A stretch of 64,000 bases of DNA from Runella sp. (lineage in GTDB: Bacteria > Bacteroidota > Bacteroidia > Cytophagales > Spirosomataceae): NCBI RefSeq assembly GCF_027484545.1, contig NZ_JAIXST010000129.1, positions 1 to 64,000 of the forward strand. The letters are read 5' to 3'. A program made the position numbers and the translations under genes. The first letter of the stretch is position 1. Each line of letters starts with the position of its first letter. Shown here one piece after another: positions 2,134 through 53,306 of the stretch. The notes beneath the pieces were generated by a model. It was not told where the DNA came from. It saw only the letters and a list, made by a program, of their open reading frames with translations, and did no database searches.

Positions 2134-4860
2134 TTATCTAATCTTCAATGACCAAGTTTGTAATTTTTTGTTGGCATAGCTGTAAATCAACAGCTTGTTG
2201 TAGCCTTCCACTAAACTCACCCGAACTGGTATTTCGCTTGGGAAGGGCTTGTCGCCAATCTGGTTGCCTTTTAAATCGTATAGCGTTGTATAATTACCTG
2301 ATTTTACGCTCAGGAACTTCACTTCCGAACTTAAGAAATGGTATTGTACCTGGTTCTGATCTTCAATGAGTCCTTTGGCCGAAAACAACTCGTTGCCACG
2401 TTTATCCAATACCGCAAATTGGGTTTCCGATTCACGGAATAAGATCCAATCCCGGTTGTTGGTGGCGGCTCTGGCCCGAAAATAGGAGGTAGGGTCTGAA
2501 CGGAACAGTTGTCTTTTATTGGTGATTTTACCTCCCAATGTGATTTCAAACAATTCACCGTATTTGCTTACTCCAAGAAGGTCAGTCGTGCCGTTTTCAG
2601 GCATAAACACCCCAAAAAAGGGTCCGAAGAAATTAGTTTTAAGGTCTAATTTGTACGGTTCGGGTATTACCCCTGTTTCACTGATTAATCCTACCTGACC
2701 AGAAGCCTGCGTAAAGAGAAAATGGCGTTTACCTTGGTATTCCACTTCATGAATAGGCAATAATAAATCGACAAAGGGACGCGAACGGTTCAGAAGTACA
2801 GGAGGTTGGCTGGGGCTGTTCCAGAGATATAAAAAACCTCCCGTGTCTATCACCAAGAATCTAAAACTTCCTTCAATCCCACTTTCAAGTCGTTGAAAGC
2901 TGCGTATGCTGCGACCTACTGGCAGGCGTACGGGTGGGAGCGTCATGTAGCGTTGACGGTCATCTTCATCTACCACATTCAGGCTTTTTTCGGTGGCAAA
3001 AACGTATTGCAATCGGCCAATGCTAAGGAAGTCAACGGAGTAAATGTCGCCAATAATCGGAGCATCCAATTGCGTCATTTTTCGTTTTTTCTCTTCGGCA
3101 AAAGGATTTTGCATTTCGCGGGAGGGTGTCACTACTACGATTTTTTCCAAATCGCTCGGGTAATTACGAACGATATAGATACCACCCGCAGGAGCCGGTT
3201 CAAAGGCCTGTTCCTGTTGCAGGAATACTTTATTGAGGGTTTTGGCACTGGCAGATTTGCTCAAACGGCCAAACGTCAGTGAAGAGTATGCTCGTTCGTT
3301 TTTGTAAGCAGATTGAAACACCAACTGGTCAAAAGGATGCTTTTCAGTAATGTCATAGTTGAGATTATTGAAAAGATAATTCATAAAACCAGTTCCCATG
3401 TACTCTTTGCTTTTGCGCGGATTGATGGCGAAAGTGAAATTGGAAGCTCCAAGTGTTTTTTCCAGAAAAGTATTATGAATAGATGAGTTGGCCCAAGTTC
3501 GTTGGTATTCTAAATCAATGAGATAATCTTTTAATACCTGTGAATCGTTGGCGTAAACCACAAAGTTTTTGTGAAACGCTACATACGTCTTTGGAAAGCC
3601 CTTAAAGAGTCCGCCAAACAACACAGAAGGAAGTTCAAACCAATCAATAGTGTAGACATATCCTCCCTGAAACGGCTCATAAGGAAAGCCTTTGTTTTTA
3701 TTGAAAAGAATAGATAAACGCTTAAAAAACCTTTCAAGGCCGTTTTTGGGCTGCACCTGTTGCAGCAAAATCTGGCCTTTGGTAAGCACATTGTTAGGCT
3801 CTAACTGACACAAGATCAGTTCTTTATTGATACTCCGATAAAAAGAATCTAACCGAGCATTTCCCAACAATGTCAACAGGCTTTTTCGAGATTGATTTAC
3901 TGAATCAGTTGAAATGTTGCTTAACTGAGGGCGGAGCTTGCGAATGAACGTAAGTCCATCGTCGAAGCCTAAACGGAACATAATTGCCGTATTGTTGGGA
4001 ATAAAAAAAGCACTTTTTAAGGTGCTTGCTTTTTGATTGTTAAGTGCTTCCAGATAGCCTTCCAATTTTACTTTTTTGCCTTTGGAGACCAACGTAGGAT
4101 TCTTTAAAGAGAATAATTTGTCCAAATGCAAACCTTCAGTTCCGGGTAAAAATGATAAGAAATAGAGTAGCGCTGCGTCAGGATTGGTGGAAGCTTCATT
4201 GCGGAGTGCTTCAGAAAGCAAGACGTTATCCATGTATACGCTCAATTCGCTTCCTTCCTGTTTGATACTTTCAAAACGGCTGGTATTGGTAGCGCGGAGT
4301 GGGCTTCTGGCAAATCGTATCCAATCTTCGAGCACATCACCGGAAGCGCAGGAAACTAAAAAATTATTAAAGAAAGTATAGGTAAATAAAGGCTCCGAGT
4401 TGGGGGTGGTAACGTCATAAATTTTCTGTCCGCTATGGATATGAGACGTTACACGTGCTTTGGAGGAAGCAGGCCCTTCCAGCCAATTATAGCTCTGGAA
4501 GGCTTCGAGGGGTAGGAAAACCAAATAAGTAAAGCGCCCTCCTGATGTTTTTTGCAGCACATACGTGATGGAACGGCCTTTGAGTAGTTGCTCGGGGCGG
4601 TTAGTTTCATCCGATAGTAATCGGAACATATCAATCTGGCGAGCGGCCAAATTGAATAAAGGCACTTCGCGCATCTCAATACCACCTTTTTGAACTTTGT
4701 AGGTGGTATCTTGTAAACGCTGACTTTGAACTAAAAAGAAGGTGTTTTCAGGGAGCAATTTCCAGACTGAAGCCGAGTACATCTGCCACCTCTGAAATCC
4801 CCACCACCCGGCAAATAAAACCGTTAATGAAATTCCAACGATTAAGCCTCTTTTTCTCAT
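2134..4860 (-). CDS. Large hypothetical protein, N-terminal TM anchor, possible C-terminal beta-propeller
   Basis: ORF 908 aa, single N-terminal hydrophobic helix; family not recognised with certainty. Confidence 0.6.
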   Translation of the reverse strand: MRKRGLIVGISLTVLFAGWWGFQRWQMYSASVWKLLPENTFFLVQSQRLQDTTYKVQKGGIEMREVPLFNLAARQIDMFRLLSDETNRPEQLLKGRSITYVLQKTSGGRFTYLVFLPLEAFQSYNWLEGPASSKARVTSHIHSGQKIYDVTTPNSEPLFTYTFFNNFLVSCASGDVLEDWIRFARSPLRATNTSRFESIKQEGSELSVYMDNVLLSEALRNEASTNPDAALLYFLSFLPGTEGLHLDKLFSLKNPTLVSKGKKVKLEGYLEALNNQKASTLKSAFFIPNNTAIMFRLGFDDGLTFIRKLRPQLSNISTDSVNQSRKSLLTLLGNARLDSFYRSINKELILCQLEPNNVLTKGQILLQQVQPKNGLERFFKRLSILFNKNKGFPYEPFQGGYVYTIDWFELPSVLFGGLFKGFPKTYVAFHKNFVVYANDSQVLKDYLIDLEYQRTWANSSIHNTFLEKTLGASNFTFAINPRKSKEYMGTGFMNYLFNNLNYDITEKHPFDQLVFQSAYKNERAYSSLTFGRLSKSASAKTLNKVFLQQEQAFEPAPAGGIYIVRNYPSDLEKIVVVTPSREMQNPFAEEKKRKMTQLDAPIIGDIYSVDFLSIGRLQYVFATEKSLNVVDEDDRQRYMTLPPVRLPVGRSIRSFQRLESGIEGSFRFLVIDTGGFLYLWNSPSQPPVLLNRSRPFVDLLLPIHEVEYQGKRHFLFTQASGQVGLISETGVIPEPYKLDLKTNFFGPFFGVFMPENGTTDLLGVSKYGELFEITLGGKITNKRQLFRSDPTSYFRARAATNNRDWILFRESETQFAVLDKRGNELFSAKGLIEDQNQVQYHFLSSEVKFLSVKSGNYTTLYDLKGNQIGDKPFPSEIPVRVSLVEGYNKLLIYSYANKKLQTWSLKIR

Positions 4861-4863
4861 AGT

Positions 4864-4891
4864 AGTTTACCGTTTACGGTTAAAAGTTGAA
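4864..4891 (-). repeat. Heptad array upstream of ORF 2134..4860
   Basis: Minus strand TTTCAAC TTTTAAC CGTAAAC GGTAAAC, ending 4 nt before the ATG. Confidence 0.7.
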
Positions 4892-33032: not shown

Positions 33033-33091
33033 AACTATATTTGATCACTCAAAATGTTATTTGTGAATATGATCTTTAACAATTAAACTTC

Positions 33092-33126
33092 AAATAACGA
33101 TTAACAGATAACAATTAACGGGTAAC
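33092..33126 (+). repeat. Heptad array NNNTAAC x5
   Basis: AAATAAC GATTAAC AGATAAC AATTAAC GGGTAAC, 5 nt before sucB ATG (33132). Confidence 0.85.
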
Positions 33127-33131
33127 AGAAA

Positions 33132-34727
33132 ATGTCACAGATCGAAATAAAAGTACCTACCGTAGGAGAGTCCATCACAGAAGTGACGATTGGTTCTTGG
33201 GTAAAAAAAGACGGTGAGAACGTCAAACGCGACGAAGTAATATGCAGTTTGGATTCAGACAAAGCCTCTTTTGAAGTGGTTTCTGAAGCAGATGGTATGC
33301 TGCATATTAAAGCTCAGGAAGGAGATGTATTGCCCATTGGAGGATTGATTTGTACGGTTGAAACTTCTGCGAATGGTGTGGCTGCTCCTGCGGCAGCCGT
33401 CGCTGCACCCGCACCGGTTGCAGCTTCTGCGGCACCGTCTCCTGCTCCCGTACCTGCGTCTGCTCCGGCAGCCGCTGCGAAGGTTGTAGAAATGAAGGTG
33501 CCGACAGTGGGGGAATCTGTAACGGAAGTTACCATAGCCAATTGGAATAAAAAAGACGGAGATACCGTTCAATTAGACGAAGTTCTTTGCGAATTGGAAT
33601 CTGATAAAGCTACCTTTGAACTTCCTGCTGAAGCTGCCGGAACCCTGCGAATTGTAGCCGAAACAGGCGCTACTTTACCTATCGGTGCCGTTATTTGCCG
33701 TATCGAAGTAGGTGGCGTTGTTGCTCAGCCAACGGCTGTGAATGGACCACAACCTCCCGCAGCAGAAACGGCAACTGTGCAGCAGGCAGCAAGTTCCGGA
33801 AACTATGCTACGGGACATCCTTCTCCTGCCGCCGCAAAAATTTTGGCAGAAAAAGGAATCGAAGCGGCCAATGTATCGGGTAGTGGAGTAGGTGGAAGAA
33901 TAACAAAAGAAGATGCAGATAAAGCTTCGGCAAGCAGTGCGCAACCTACCGCACCGACTCCACCGCCAACGCCAATGCCTGTTACTCCTCCTGCTGCACC
34001 TGTCAGTCAGCCGGCGGCTACTGAAAAAGTGGGACAACGTAGGGTAAAAATGACTTCATTGCGTAAGACGATTGCCCGTCGTTTAGTGGCAGTGAAAAAT
34101 GAGACGGCTATGCTTACTACCTTTAATGAGGTAGACATGAAGCCAATCATGGAGTTAAGAGCTAAATACAAAGACAAATTCAAAGAAAAGCATGGTGTAG
34201 GTTTGGGTTTTATGTCTTTCTTCACCAAGGCCTGTGCCGTGGCATTGAAAGACTTCCCGGTGGTAAATGCGTACATTGATGGAGATGAAATTGTTTATAA
34301 TGACAGTGCTGACATTGCCATTGCAGTTTCAACGGAACGCGGCTTAGTGGTGCCGGTAGTGCGTCATACCGAGAAAATGACTTTCTCTGAAATCGAAAAA
34401 GAAATTATTCGTTTGGCAGGTTTGGCACGTGATAATAAGTTGACCATTGACCAAATGACGGGAGGAACCTTCACCATTACCAATGGCGGTATTTTTGGTT
34501 CGATGCTTTCTACTCCCATTATCAATGCGCCCCAATCGGCTATTCTTGGAATGCACAATATCGTTGAACGTGCCGTAGTGGTAAATGGTGAAATAGTGAT
34601 TCGCCCCATTATGTACGTAGCTCTCAGTTACGACCACCGTATTATTGACGGCAAGGATTCGGTTAGCTTTTTGGTTCGTGTAAAACAAATTTTAGAAGAC
34701 CCGACACGGTTGTTGTTAGAAGTTTAA
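33132..34727 (+). CDS. sucB: Dihydrolipoyllysine succinyltransferase E2 with two lipoyl domains
   Basis: Two KVPTVGES(I/V)TEVTI...SDKA(S/T)FE lipoyl domains, Ala/Pro linkers, PSBD, C-term [18 protein letters not shown]. Confidence 0.95.
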
Positions 34728-38862: not shown

Positions 38863-38911
38863 AATAAAGCATTAATAACCGCAACGGCGGATCGTCGCGA
38901 CCGCGGTGTAT

Positions 38912-38932
38912 CGTTAACAAATAACTATTAAC
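38912..38932 (+). repeat. Heptad array NNNTAAC x3 upstream of nusA
   Basis: CGTTAAC AAATAAC TATTAAC, 14 nt before ATG. Confidence 0.8.
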
Positions 38933-38946
38933 TCTTTCGTAAGAAA

Positions 38947-40191
38947 ATGGATAGTGTAGTATTAATAGAATCGTTTGCCGAGTTTGCTCGCTCCAAAAAC
39001 ATTGATCGTCCAACGATCATCAAAGTCCTGGAGGAAGTGTTTCGCACGATGATTCGTAAAAAATATGGTACAGATACCAATTTTGACGTCATTATCAACC
39101 CCGATAGCGGTGATCTTGAAATGTGGCGTACTCGTGAGATTGTAGACGACAATTCAGAAGATATTTGGGAACCCGATAAAATTCCTTTGACCGAAGCCCA
39201 TAAAATTCAGGATGACTTTGAAGTTGGGGAAGAAGTGGCTGAAGAAGTAAAGTTGGAAGACTTCGGACGTCGTATGGTGCAGACTGCTCGCCAAACGTTG
39301 ATTCAAAAAATCAAAGATTTGGAAAAAGAGTTGTTGTATATCAAATACAAAGACATGGTTGGCGACCTTCTCACGGTAGATGTGTATCAGATGCTCAAAA
39401 ATGAGATTATCTGTTTAGACTCGGAAGGAAACGAACTTGTATTGCCAAAACAGGAACAAATTTTTAAGGACAAGTACCGTAAAGGAGAACCCGTAAAAGT
39501 AGTAATTCATAAAGTTGAATTAAACAACGGTACGCCTCGCATTACGCTTTCACGTACGTCACCGGTATTTTTGGAAAGATTGTTTGAAACGGAAATTCCC
39601 GAAATTTATGACGGACTTATTAATATTCGTAAGATTGTTCGGGAGCCGGGAGAAAGAGCGAAAGTAGCCGTAGAATCTTACGATGATCGCATTGATCCGG
39701 TAGGAGCCTGTGTAGGGATGAAAGGTTCGCGGATACACACAATTGTGCGGGAATTGAACAACGAGAATATTGATGTTATCAATTATACCGAGAATCTTGA
39801 ATTGCTTATCCAACGGGCACTGAGTCCTGCCAAAATCACTTCCATGGTGATAGACCGCGAGACGAAACGAGTATCGGTTTATTTAAAACCTGACCAAGTA
39901 TCTTTAGCAATTGGTAAAGGAGGTCAGAATATTAAATTGGCGGGCCGTTTGGTAGGAATGGAGATAGATGTATTCCGTGATGTAGAAGGTCAGGAAGACG
40001 AAGAAGATGTTGATTTGAGCGAATTTACGGATGAGATTGACGAATGGATGATTGAGGAATTCCGTAAAATTGGTTTGGATACCGCTAAACAAGTGATTAG
40101 CATCAGCAAGGAAGAACTGATTCGCCGTACAGACCTTGAAGAAGAGACAGTGGATGAAATCTTAGAAATTTTGCGTCGAGAGTTTGAATAA
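38947..40191 (+). CDS. nusA: Transcription termination/antitermination factor NusA
   Basis: S1/KH domains: VAVESYDDRIDPVGACVGMKGSRI...LAIGKGGQNIKLAGRLVG. Confidence 0.97.
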   Translation: MDSVVLIESFAEFARSKNIDRPTIIKVLEEVFRTMIRKKYGTDTNFDVIINPDSGDLEMWRTREIVDDNSEDIWEPDKIPLTEAHKIQDDFEVGEEVAEEVKLEDFGRRMVQTARQTLIQKIKDLEKELLYIKYKDMVGDLLTVDVYQMLKNEIICLDSEGNELVLPKQEQIFKDKYRKGEPVKVVIHKVELNNGTPRITLSRTSPVFLERLFETEIPEIYDGLINIRKIVREPGERAKVAVESYDDRIDPVGACVGMKGSRIHTIVRELNNENIDVINYTENLELLIQRALSPAKITSMVIDRETKRVSVYLKPDQVSLAIGKGGQNIKLAGRLVGMEIDVFRDVEGQEDEEDVDLSEFTDEIDEWMIEEFRKIGLDTAKQVISISKEELIRRTDLEEETVDEILEILRREFE

Positions 40192-40312: not shown

Positions 40313-40333
40313 AAATAACGAATAACCAATAAC
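40313..40333 (+). repeat. Heptad array NNNTAAC x3 upstream of infB
   Basis: AAATAAC GAATAAC CAATAAC. Confidence 0.8.
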
Positions 40334-40334
40334 C

Positions 40335-40348
40335 CGTACTTCGGTACG
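40335..40348 (+). promoter_or_regulatory. cUUCGg tetraloop hairpin in infB leader
   Basis: CGTAC-TTCG-GTACG, perfect 5-bp stem, 12 nt before ATG 40361. Confidence 0.7.
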
Positions 40349-40360
40349 AACATTTCCAAT

Positions 40361-43300
40361 ATGTCGGAAGAAAAAAGTATGCGCCTTAGCCAAGCGGCTC
40401 GAATACTCAACCGTAACCACGCTGCGGTAGCGAGTATTTTAGCGGCAAAAGGGTATAAGGTGGACAACAATCCCAATACCAAATTGAACGCAGAACAGCT
40501 TGAATTCTTAGCAAAGGAATTCAGGGCTGAGGCGTTATTGGGGGGAGGCACACCCAAAAAAGAAGAAGTAGCCGTGCCTCAATCTAAGCCTGATGATAGC
40601 CCTGTATTGTATTTCCGTACTTCACAGGCCGCTGCTGTCAATACAAAACCCACTGTTGCAGAGCCACAGCCTGAACCGGTCGGAAAGGAGTCTGAACATG
40701 CTGAAACATCACCTATTGGTTTAAAAGTAGTTGGTAAAATTGATTTGGATGCTCCCAAAATCGTTTCGCCTCCACCTGCCCCCAAACCTGCGGAAATACC
40801 AAAACCTGTGGTGCCTGCTGTGGTTGAAGAAAAGAAAATAGAACCTCTGGTAGTTCCTGTAATTGAAACGACCAAAGAAATTGTTCCAGAAGTAGTTGCA
40901 GTCGTGCAACCAGTGTCGACACCTGTGGTTGAAGTCAAACCAACCCCTGTGCCTGAGCCTAAACAGGAAGTAAAACCTGCGGAGGAATTACCAAAACCGG
41001 TGGTAGAGCTGCCGCAGCCAAAGCCTGTAGAAAAAGTTGCGACACTTGTAGAAGAGATTTCTGCGCCTGCTGTGGAAGCACCTAAAGTTGTGGAAGTACC
41101 TAAAGAAGAACCCAAACCGGAACCGATTAAAGTACCTGTTGTAGAAAATAAAATTGTGGAGAACAGACCAGAATCTCGGGAGCAAAGACCTCCCCGCAGA
41201 GAAGAAGGTTTCAGACCGCAGCAGGAACAACAGCCTGCCAATAGGAATTCAAGGCCGCAACAACCGACCCCGCCTGCTCAAAGAAAGCCTGAGCCACCGA
41301 AAGAAGTGCCAGTAGTTGAGCCAGAGGTGGAGCCTATGCTGATTGAAGCAAAAGCAGATCCGTTGAAAGGGTTGACAATTTTAGGAAAAATTGAACTCCC
41401 TACAGAACGCCGCAGTAATGACAATAGCGCCGCTAATAGGGATAAAGATAAAAAACGTAAACGTAAGCGAGTTCGTAAAGGAGAGAAAGTAATAGAGAAT
41501 GCACCTGCTAACAGAGGGGCAAGACCTGGCGATAAGCCAGCGAACGCTCCCCGTGATGGAGGTAATTCAAGACCTGTTACTCCTGCACATCCTGTTTCTA
41601 ATACTACTCCTGCCACGGGTACTAATGCGAATGCCGCTAATAACAATGCAAATGCAAAGAAACCAGCTACAACTACCGGAGGTGGTGGAGCGAACAAAAA
41701 AGGTGGAAACAATAACCGACGTGAGCGAAAAGACGAAATTACGCAGAAAGAAGTTGCAGATTCAATAAAGGCGACTAATGCCCGCTTGAGTGGAGGAACG
41801 AGAGGTAAAAACTTTGGCGCGGATAAACGACGTGAACGTCGTAAAGTGCGTGCTGAGGCCGAAGAAGGACGCTTAATGCAAGAGCAGGAGGATGCAAAAG
41901 TGCTCAAAGTAACTGAGTTTATCTCGGCAAATGAACTTGCTTCTCTGATGGACTCTTCTGTGCAGGAAGTTATATCTGTGTGTTTAAGCATGGGGATGTT
42001 TGTCTCTATCAACCAACGTTTGGATGCAGAAAGTATTTCGCTTATTGCCGACGAATTTGGTTTTGAAGTCTCATTTATCTCAGCCGAAGAAGAAATTCAG
42101 GGCGATGTTGTATTAGAGGAAGATGCCGAAGAAGATCTTTTGGAGCGAGCGCCTATTGTGACTATTATGGGTCACGTTGACCATGGTAAAACATCGTTAC
42201 TTGACTATATCCGTCGTACTCGCGTTGCTGCGGGTGAAGCGGGGGGCATTACCCAGCACATTGGTGCTTATAGTGTTAAAACAGAAGGCGGTCGCCGAAT
42301 TGCTTTCTTGGATACGCCGGGTCACGAAGCCTTTACAGCCATGCGTGCTCGGGGAGCTAAAGTGACTGACGTAGTTATCATCGTAATTGCGGCCGATGAC
42401 TCAATCATGCCTCAAACCCGTGAAGCAATCAATCATGCTCAGAATGCGGGAGTTCCTATTGTATTCGCCTTTAGTAAAATAGATAAGCCAGGTGCTAATA
42501 CTGAAAAAATTCGTGAAGCTTTGGCAAACATGAACATTCTGGTAGAAGAATGGGGAGGAAAATACCAAACGCAGGAAATTTCTTCTAAGTCCGGAGTAGG
42601 TATTGCTGAGTTACTCGAAAAAGTATTGCTTGAAGCAGAATTACTGGAATTAAAAGCTAATCCTAATCGTCGTGCTTCGGGTACAGTAATCGAAGCTTCA
42701 CTTGATAAGGGCCGAGGTTATCTGGCAACAATTTTGGTACAAACAGGTACGCTGAAAGTAGGGGATGTTATCATCGCCGGAGCGCACTATGGACGTGCTA
42801 AAGCAATGTTTGATGCTACAGGCACTCGTCTCAAAGAGGCAAGACCATCTACTCCCGTACAGCTGTTGGGCTTAAATGGAGCGCCACAAGCGGGAGATAA
42901 GTTCAATGTAATGGAGAACGAACGCGAAGCCCGCGAAATTGCGAATAAGCGTGAGCAAATCATGCGTGAGCAAACAATCCGTACTCGTAAGCACATTACC
43001 TTAGAAGAAATTGGACGTCGTAAGGCAATTGGAACGTTCAAAGAACTAAACATTATCATCAAAGGTGATGTGGATGGTTCAGTAGAAGCCCTTTCAGATT
43101 CGTTGCTTAAACTTTCGACTGAAGAAGTTCAGGTCAATATTATCAATAAGGCCGTTGGACAAATTGCCGAATCTGATGTCAATTTGGCGATAGCTTCTGA
43201 TGCCATCATTGTAGGTTTCCAAGTGAGACCTTCAAATAATGCTAAGAAATTGGCTGAGCAGGAGCAAATAGAGATTCGTCTTTACTCGGTCATTTACGAT

Positions 43301-51133: not shown

Positions 51134-51214
51134 TTGAATAGGAATTTTTCCTTTTACTATAGCCATTGAAAACTCATTGTAAAATGTAAAACCTAACGAG
51201 AAAACAACAAAACA

Positions 51215-52675: not shown

Positions 52676-52686
52676 CAATTCAGAAC

Positions 52687-52763
52687 GTTATTGGTTATCC
52701 GTTAAACGTTATCAGACCTCATTTATGCATTTTCAAATACACCGATAACTATTAACGGATAAC
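52687..52763. repeat. Inverted pair of heptad arrays upstream of hemJ
   Basis: GTTATTG GTTATCC GTTAAAC GTTATCA (52687-52714) and CGATAAC TATTAAC GGATAAC (52743-52763). Confidence 0.8.
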
Positions 52764-52772
52764 TCATTATCA

Positions 52773-53306
52773 ATGGCTCTTTTTTACTTCAAAGCCTTCC
52801 ACATTGTGGGAGCCGTAGCTTGGTTTGCAGGCTTGTTTTACTTAGTTCGGATATTTGTATATCACGCAGAAGCTGACCAAAAACCGGAACATTTACGGCA
52901 GCCCTTTAAAGAGCAATTTGGGCTCATGGAATGGCGTGTTTACAAAATTATTTGTAATCCTGCCATGATGCTCACTTGGACATGTGGGCTTATCATGACT
53001 TTCTTGAACCCCAGCTATTGGCAGATGGGCTGGTTCCAAGCTAAATTCTCACTTCTTATTTTGCTGACGGTTTATCATATTTGGTGTAAACGTATTATTA
53101 TCAAACTGGAAAAAGGCGAAAAACCCTTTGATTCCTTTCAGTTTCGTCTTCTCAATGAGCTCCCTACGCTCTTTCTATTAAGTATTGTTCTGCTTGCTGT
53201 TTTAAGAGACATGCTCAATTTCTTATACGCTTTCGGTGGGGTATTGGTCTTTGGGGTATTGCTGTTTGTATTTGCCAAAGCGTATCGAAAGCGGCGGGAG
53301 GGGTAG
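52773..53306 (+). CDS. hemJ: HemJ-like protoporphyrinogen oxidase (UPF0093)
   Basis: FKAFHIVGAVAWFAGLFYLVRIFVYHAEA...WMEWRVYKIICNPAMMLTWTCGL-like. Confidence 0.9.
   Translation: MALFYFKAFHIVGAVAWFAGLFYLVRIFVYHAEADQKPEHLRQPFKEQFGLMEWRVYKIICNPAMMLTWTCGLIMTFLNPSYWQMGWFQAKFSLLILLTVYHIWCKRIIIKLEKGEKPFDSFQFRLLNELPTLFLLSIVLLAVLRDMLNFLYAFGGVLVFGVLLFVFAKAYRKRREG

Follow-up and report, generated by a model that had tools for sequence, protein, structure and literature searches.

Why should five copies of a seven-nucleotide unit, NNNTAAC, stand directly before the start codon of sucB? We took up this question in a window of 64,000 nucleotides from the draft genome of a Runella sp., in which the five-unit array (33092..33126, plus strand) ends 5 nt before the sucB ATG at 33132. 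Three further arrays, each of three units and on the plus strand, lie upstream of nusA (38912..38932; ATG at 38947), infB (40313..40333; ATG at 40361) and hemJ (52743..52763; ATG at 52773). A sequence-only reading of the window had listed these four; their coordinates and strand were all borne out, as was the remark that each of them carries TAA in all three frames, from which it had proposed a cassette stopping translation just before the start codon; its other suggestions were an A-rich landing site for ribosomes and a dispersed repeat family. It had also listed some looser relatives. The 7-periodic NNNNAAC stretch before ORF 2134..4860 (4864..4891, minus strand) is present, at most as a degenerate relative; the leaders at 51179 and 5747, by contrast, do not convince as 7-periodic arrays.

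What that reading overlooked is the partner of the hemJ array. A four-unit TAAC array, 52687..52711 on the minus strand, reads GTTANNN in the sense of the genes and lies 11 nt past the stop codon of a LysM gene. This stop-side arm is the inverted counterpart of the start-side arm of hemJ, and together they make up an intercistronic inverted-heptad element (52676..52772, plus strand) with a predicted hairpin (MFE -20.9 kcal/mol). In the gap between sucA and sucB the sole possible trace of a stop-side partner is a weak one, a single GTTA (GTTATTTG, 33056..33059, plus strand). When Rfam covariance models were run against the window, two tRNAs alone reached the gathering score, and the arrays matched no known RNA family. 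A small hairpin, CGTACTTCGGTACG, was seen directly 3' of the infB array (40335-40348); across Runella infB leaders its stem is constant and its loop variable (TTCG, TTTA, CAAG, TTTG).

The heptad unit and its frequency

The arrays are in large excess over chance. In the intergenic DNA of the window, triple-unit matches (overlapping ones included) number 8, where dinucleotide-preserving shuffles give 0.01; for a 1.19 Mb sample of the same genome the corresponding figures are 86 and 0.08. As this sample was partly picked for arrays, the unbiased figure is the genome-wide one, 118 matches to TAACNNNTAACNNNTAAC (three spaced TAAC cores) in about 7.1 Mb, against 9 for the reversed control. In the 143 kb of intergenic DNA within the sample, TAAC cores of the same orientation are spaced by 7 nt 174 times, by 14 nt 103 times and by 21 nt 40 times, against about 8.5 at other spacings. 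No comparable spacing peak was found in this DNA for TAAT, TAAG, TGAC, TAGC or TGAT.

The triplet between two cores is not random either, with R at the second position in 160 of 171 cases and W at the third in 164 of 171. The commonest triplets are GGA, GGT, AAT and GAT, and TGA accounts for only 9 of the 171. Neighbouring triplets are nevertheless independent of each other (8 identical vs 7.6 expected; nucleotide identities 107 vs 124 expected). The repeat unit is TAACNRW, and the units are independent draws from one consensus. Since adjacent units resemble each other no more than random ones do, recent replication slippage is unlikely, and we rejected it.

Several other small repeats were noted in the intergenic DNA of this genome. 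Weaker 7-periodic signals exist with other 4-mers (GAAT, TACT, GAGT, TCAC). Small G+C-rich repeats (CGCAACGGCGG, CGCACGGGCGG, GGGGCCGCCCGCGCGG) adjoin TAAC arrays at positions 38880-38907 of the window and at L032:8168-8256, L053:9647 and L067:4632, and CGCACGGGCG is present in 15 intergenic regions. A recurrent hairpin of variable loop, GTGCTTTAGCAC, also adjoins TAAC arrays, as if it were a companion element (L052:10810, L053:9647, L067:4632, L068:1145, L076:266, L078:3710).

Polarity at gene edges and pairing of the arms

Genes were called by a simple codon-usage script, by which some start sites will have been misplaced. The arrays are nearly all intergenic: 2 of 69 arrays of at least three units fall inside called genes, both in antisense. 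Within 35 nt of a start codon, 62 arrays point head-out, that is, toward the start, and 6 tail-out; within 35 nt of a stop codon the figures are 65 and 4 (binomial p<1e-11 in each case). An array is thus directed toward the nearest gene edge, be it a start or a stop, and control spacings give next to no polarity signal there. Base composition at gene edges was considered as the cause of this orientation and rejected, the stop side being insufficiently skewed. The strand bias relative to downstream starts that had been put forward as a test is therefore real, and so are the start-side arrays, but the stop-side arrays, equally common genome-wide, had been missed. On the stop side the sense strand reads GTTANNN, mostly beginning 2-17 nt past the stop codon, and on the start side the array heads lie mostly 5-15 nt upstream of the start. 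Co-directional gaps, mainly those of 60-150 nt, hold 67 of 88 arrays; 25 of 222 co-directional gaps of this length contain them, a density that is inflated because the sampled stretches were partly picked for arrays, which should leave the orientation unaffected.

These observations leave very little room for a cassette whose task would be to halt translation, whatever its frame, ahead of a start codon. Three units do place TAA in every frame, but enrichment is confined to 7 nt and its multiples, when spacings of 4, 5, 8, 10 or 11 nt would do just as well; a C is required after TAA, and neither TAAT and TAAG nor, with the other stop codons, TAGC and TGAC can substitute. Half of the arrays stand behind stop codons, pointing into the antisense strand of the gene. 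Upstream of genes lacking an array, three-frame stops are in no excess (29% vs 35% in shuffles). The sister genus, as described below, moreover has a parallel element built on CAAT/ATTG. On all these grounds we rejected the cassette, to which we give next to no credence.

An A-rich, unstructured initiation site, to which bS1 or a cold-shock protein might bind and which would bring in ribosomes without use of a Shine-Dalgarno sequence, is a better candidate for the start-side arrays. The position of their heads suits it, and initiation in Bacteroidota relies on unstructured leaders with A-rich motifs, of which bS1 is the suggested reader (PMC6847099); S1, Csp or Csr have also been proposed for TAACTGA repeats by MacGregor 2015 (PMC4679880). 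As an idea for the start-side arm it is conceivable, but it leaves the fixed spacing unexplained, and also the stop-side arms, which are as numerous and have the opposite sequence on the sense strand. The starts of divergent genes also have leaders, and yet they are poorer in arrays (5 of 266 edges vs 29 of 509, p = 0.015). In the sister genus it is a T-rich arm that precedes the start. An initiation leader is, in our view, an improbable explanation.

The placement of arrays on both sides of a gap points instead to a paired layout. A common one, in co-directional gaps of 60-150 nt, is stop-[GTTANNN]k-loop-[NNNTAAC]m-start. In the source genome both arms occur in 12 co-directional gaps vs 1.4 expected, whereas arrays at both ends of one gene are in no excess (2 vs 1.2 expected); this makes the gap the unit rather than the gene, and we rejected a gene cassette flanked by arrays. 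The order of the arms is nearly absolute. A pattern search independent of gene calls, in which overlapping matches within one element are counted separately, gave GTTA..TAAC over TAAC..GTTA in a ratio of 33:0 in the source genome, 225:1 in 13 Runella genomes and 44:3 in a genome of another family (G051).

Gaps with one arm (37) are more numerous than gaps with two (13), and the two kinds fold differently. Two-armed gaps are much more stably folded than their shuffles (mean z -4.2), whereas single start-side arms show no extra folding over shuffles, and a hairpin as the account of all arrays was rejected for single arms. In the source genome, arms paired slightly better with their own partner than with swapped ones (p = 0.01); the same comparison gave p = 0.10 in genome G001, and first, smaller tests had given p = 0.31 and 0.15. 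Arm complementarity beyond what the degenerate consensus provides is weak in this genus.

Gain, loss and a parallel in a sister genus

The comparison across related genomes that the sequence-only reading had suggested upholds its notion of a dispersed heptanucleotide family. Array excess was found in all 12 other Runella genomes tested, and in a few other, scattered families of Bacteroidota; the GTTA..TAAC pattern occurs in 64 of 297 sampled genomes of the phylum, with high counts clustered in few families. What the genomic comparisons have shown, at the level of sequence, is a family of inverted-heptad repeats, dispersed and polarised, that has its centre in the gaps between cistrons. That the arrays of the window belong to such a family, whatever its role, is in our estimation very probable.

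Individual sites turn over. The source genome belongs to Runella, its NusA being 95-96% identical to that of named species of the genus. The elements at sucB, hemJ and nusA, for which orthologous leaders were compared, have been gained or lost between species without obvious harm. The gap between the LysM gene and hemJ is the clearest hairpin case: a strong hairpin (-21 to -27 kcal/mol) is kept in three Runella lineages, with triplets that differ among them (TCC/GGA vs ATT/AAT); in R. limosa, G001 and G010 an 11-nt spacer stands where the element would be. The maintained pairing should be read with care, as template switching between inverted repeats could rewrite one arm from the sequence of the other and thereby resemble compensatory change. 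The hemJ element does not resemble an intrinsic terminator, its stem being A/U-rich with no U-run behind it.

The infB array is shared by other Runella but eroded; in several species the TAAC core has changed and the triplets have been retained. This looks neutral and argues against selection on the core at that site. It tells in particular against an array of binding sites for a DNA- or RNA-binding protein that would read a degenerate heptad with polarity. Such a protein would suit units that look like independent draws from TAAC N R W at fixed spacing, and an outward polarity indifferent to gene direction would fit a signal in double-stranded DNA. But the proposal names no candidate protein, and the arrays favour co-directional gaps over divergent promoter regions; we hold it to be at least as improbable as the initiation leader.

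A parallel comes from a sister genus within the same family (genome G020), where the corresponding search gave 44 hits, representing about 40 elements, that read CAATGNA..stem..TNCATTG. Each of the 8 separate loci that were read begins shortly after a stop codon; 5 lie before a co-directional gene, 2 at convergent gene ends, and 1 is unclear. The arms pair far better with their own partner than with swapped arms (z -7.6), and the arm in front of the next start is the T-rich one, so that the point in common with Runella is neither TAA stops nor A-richness but a heptad hairpin. Leaving descent aside, the CAAT/ATTG family appears to be a parallel to the TAAC family in design. By eye, the first element of this genome follows a gene end resembling that of the LysM gene next to hemJ, and at L282:1477-1585 a stop codon is immediately followed by a near-perfect intergenic palindrome of heptads, each arm of which exceeds 40 nt.

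A possible role between cistrons, and known relatives

We tentatively favour the explanation that the arrays are arms of a dispersed intergenic inverted-heptad element with an RNA-level role between cistrons. The sequence support for the element is the strict 7-nt unit, the outward polarity, the arm order, the excess of paired arms, the independence of units, the gain and loss between species, and the sister-genus parallel. The complete element fills the gap between two co-directional genes: a spacer of 2-17 nt separates the stop codon from [GTTAWYN]k, another of 15-60 nt lies between the two arms, and [NRWTAAC]m ends 5-15 nt short of the start codon. As mRNA it would form an A/U-rich intercistronic hairpin, the base of which touches both the upstream stop codon and the next start codon, and it is in this intact, two-armed state that it may act. 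On this reading, a ribosome reaching the stop codon of the first gene would open the GUUA arm as it terminates and leave the UAAC arm unpaired before the next start, and the two neighbouring genes would in this way be coupled. Single arms would then be remnants, or simple unstructured leaders.

A functionless family of inverted heptads, spread by recombination or a template-switch process and tolerated in short intercistronic gaps, stays a serious rival of the RNA-level role, and a quite possible one. It would account for the turnover among close relatives, in some of which the hemJ site is empty, for the erosion of the infB core, for the frequency of one-armed arrays, for the presence, within one genome, of minor heptad families built on other cores, and for the sporadic occurrence over the phylum. 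However, fresh copies should have identical units, and those observed are unlike their neighbours and nonetheless keep the core and the NRW pattern; the arm order across Runella and the tight distance to the stop codon also call for a cause. It is rather unlikely that the RNA-level role extends across Bacteroidota to a whole class of intercistronic elements, in which polarised degenerate heptads have a core particular to each lineage (TAACNRW in Runella, CAATGNA in the sister genus) and the order of the arms is selected because the hairpin couples translation of the neighbours.

Heptanucleotide intergenic repeats recur in unrelated bacteria, and the papers that we found hold no accepted explanation for them. 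That arrays are polarised at both gene edges, that the arm order is almost without exception and that neighbouring units are unlike each other are sharp, testable facts, which speak against both recent slippage and a purely leader-based function. They also help to place the Runella family among known repeats. BIME/REP and ERIC are intergenic palindromic repeats that conserve a specific palindrome of fixed sequence, accompanied in REP/BIME by a guide tetranucleotide and a RAYT transposase gene. Like them, the Runella elements are short inverted repeats in intercistronic gaps and at gene ends; unlike them, they conserve no more than the heptad period and a core of 4 nt, and we noticed no conserved palindrome. 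The STRR heptanucleotide repeats of cyanobacteria are dispersed tandem copies of period 7 that are explained by slippage. The Runella arrays have the period and the dispersal in common with these and with long simple-sequence repeats (Mrazek 2007, as cited in PMC4679880), but, in contrast to STRR slippage copies, adjacent units in them resemble each other only as much as random units do.

The only directly relevant work that our search of the literature on heptads in Bacteroidetes found is that of MacGregor 2015 (PMC4679880), so that the leader-associated form, which the sequence-only reading had not known, was already published. It describes direct repeats of the heptamer TAACTGA in Beggiatoaceae, Cyanobacteria and some Bacteroidetes, which are intergenic, mostly of 2-6 units, and in many cases end within nucleotides of a start codon; they follow no functional gene class and are sporadic over phyla (PMC4679880). 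The Runella arrays share with them the TAAC-core heptad and the intergenic location. However, the TAACTGA unit is exact, related heptamers or one-base variants being rare as direct repeats (PMC4679880), whereas the Runella units are TAACNRW, differ from their neighbours and seldom contain TGA. Moreover, of 170 TAACTGA repeat sets, 147 are directed at a start codon and 12 at a stop (PMC4679880), whereas the Runella arrays are shared equally between starts and stops, with arms paired as GTTA..TAAC. The best reading is thus that the Runella family is a new variant of MacGregor's (2015) TAACTGA repeats, from which it differs in the degeneracy of its unit and in its equal use of stop edges.
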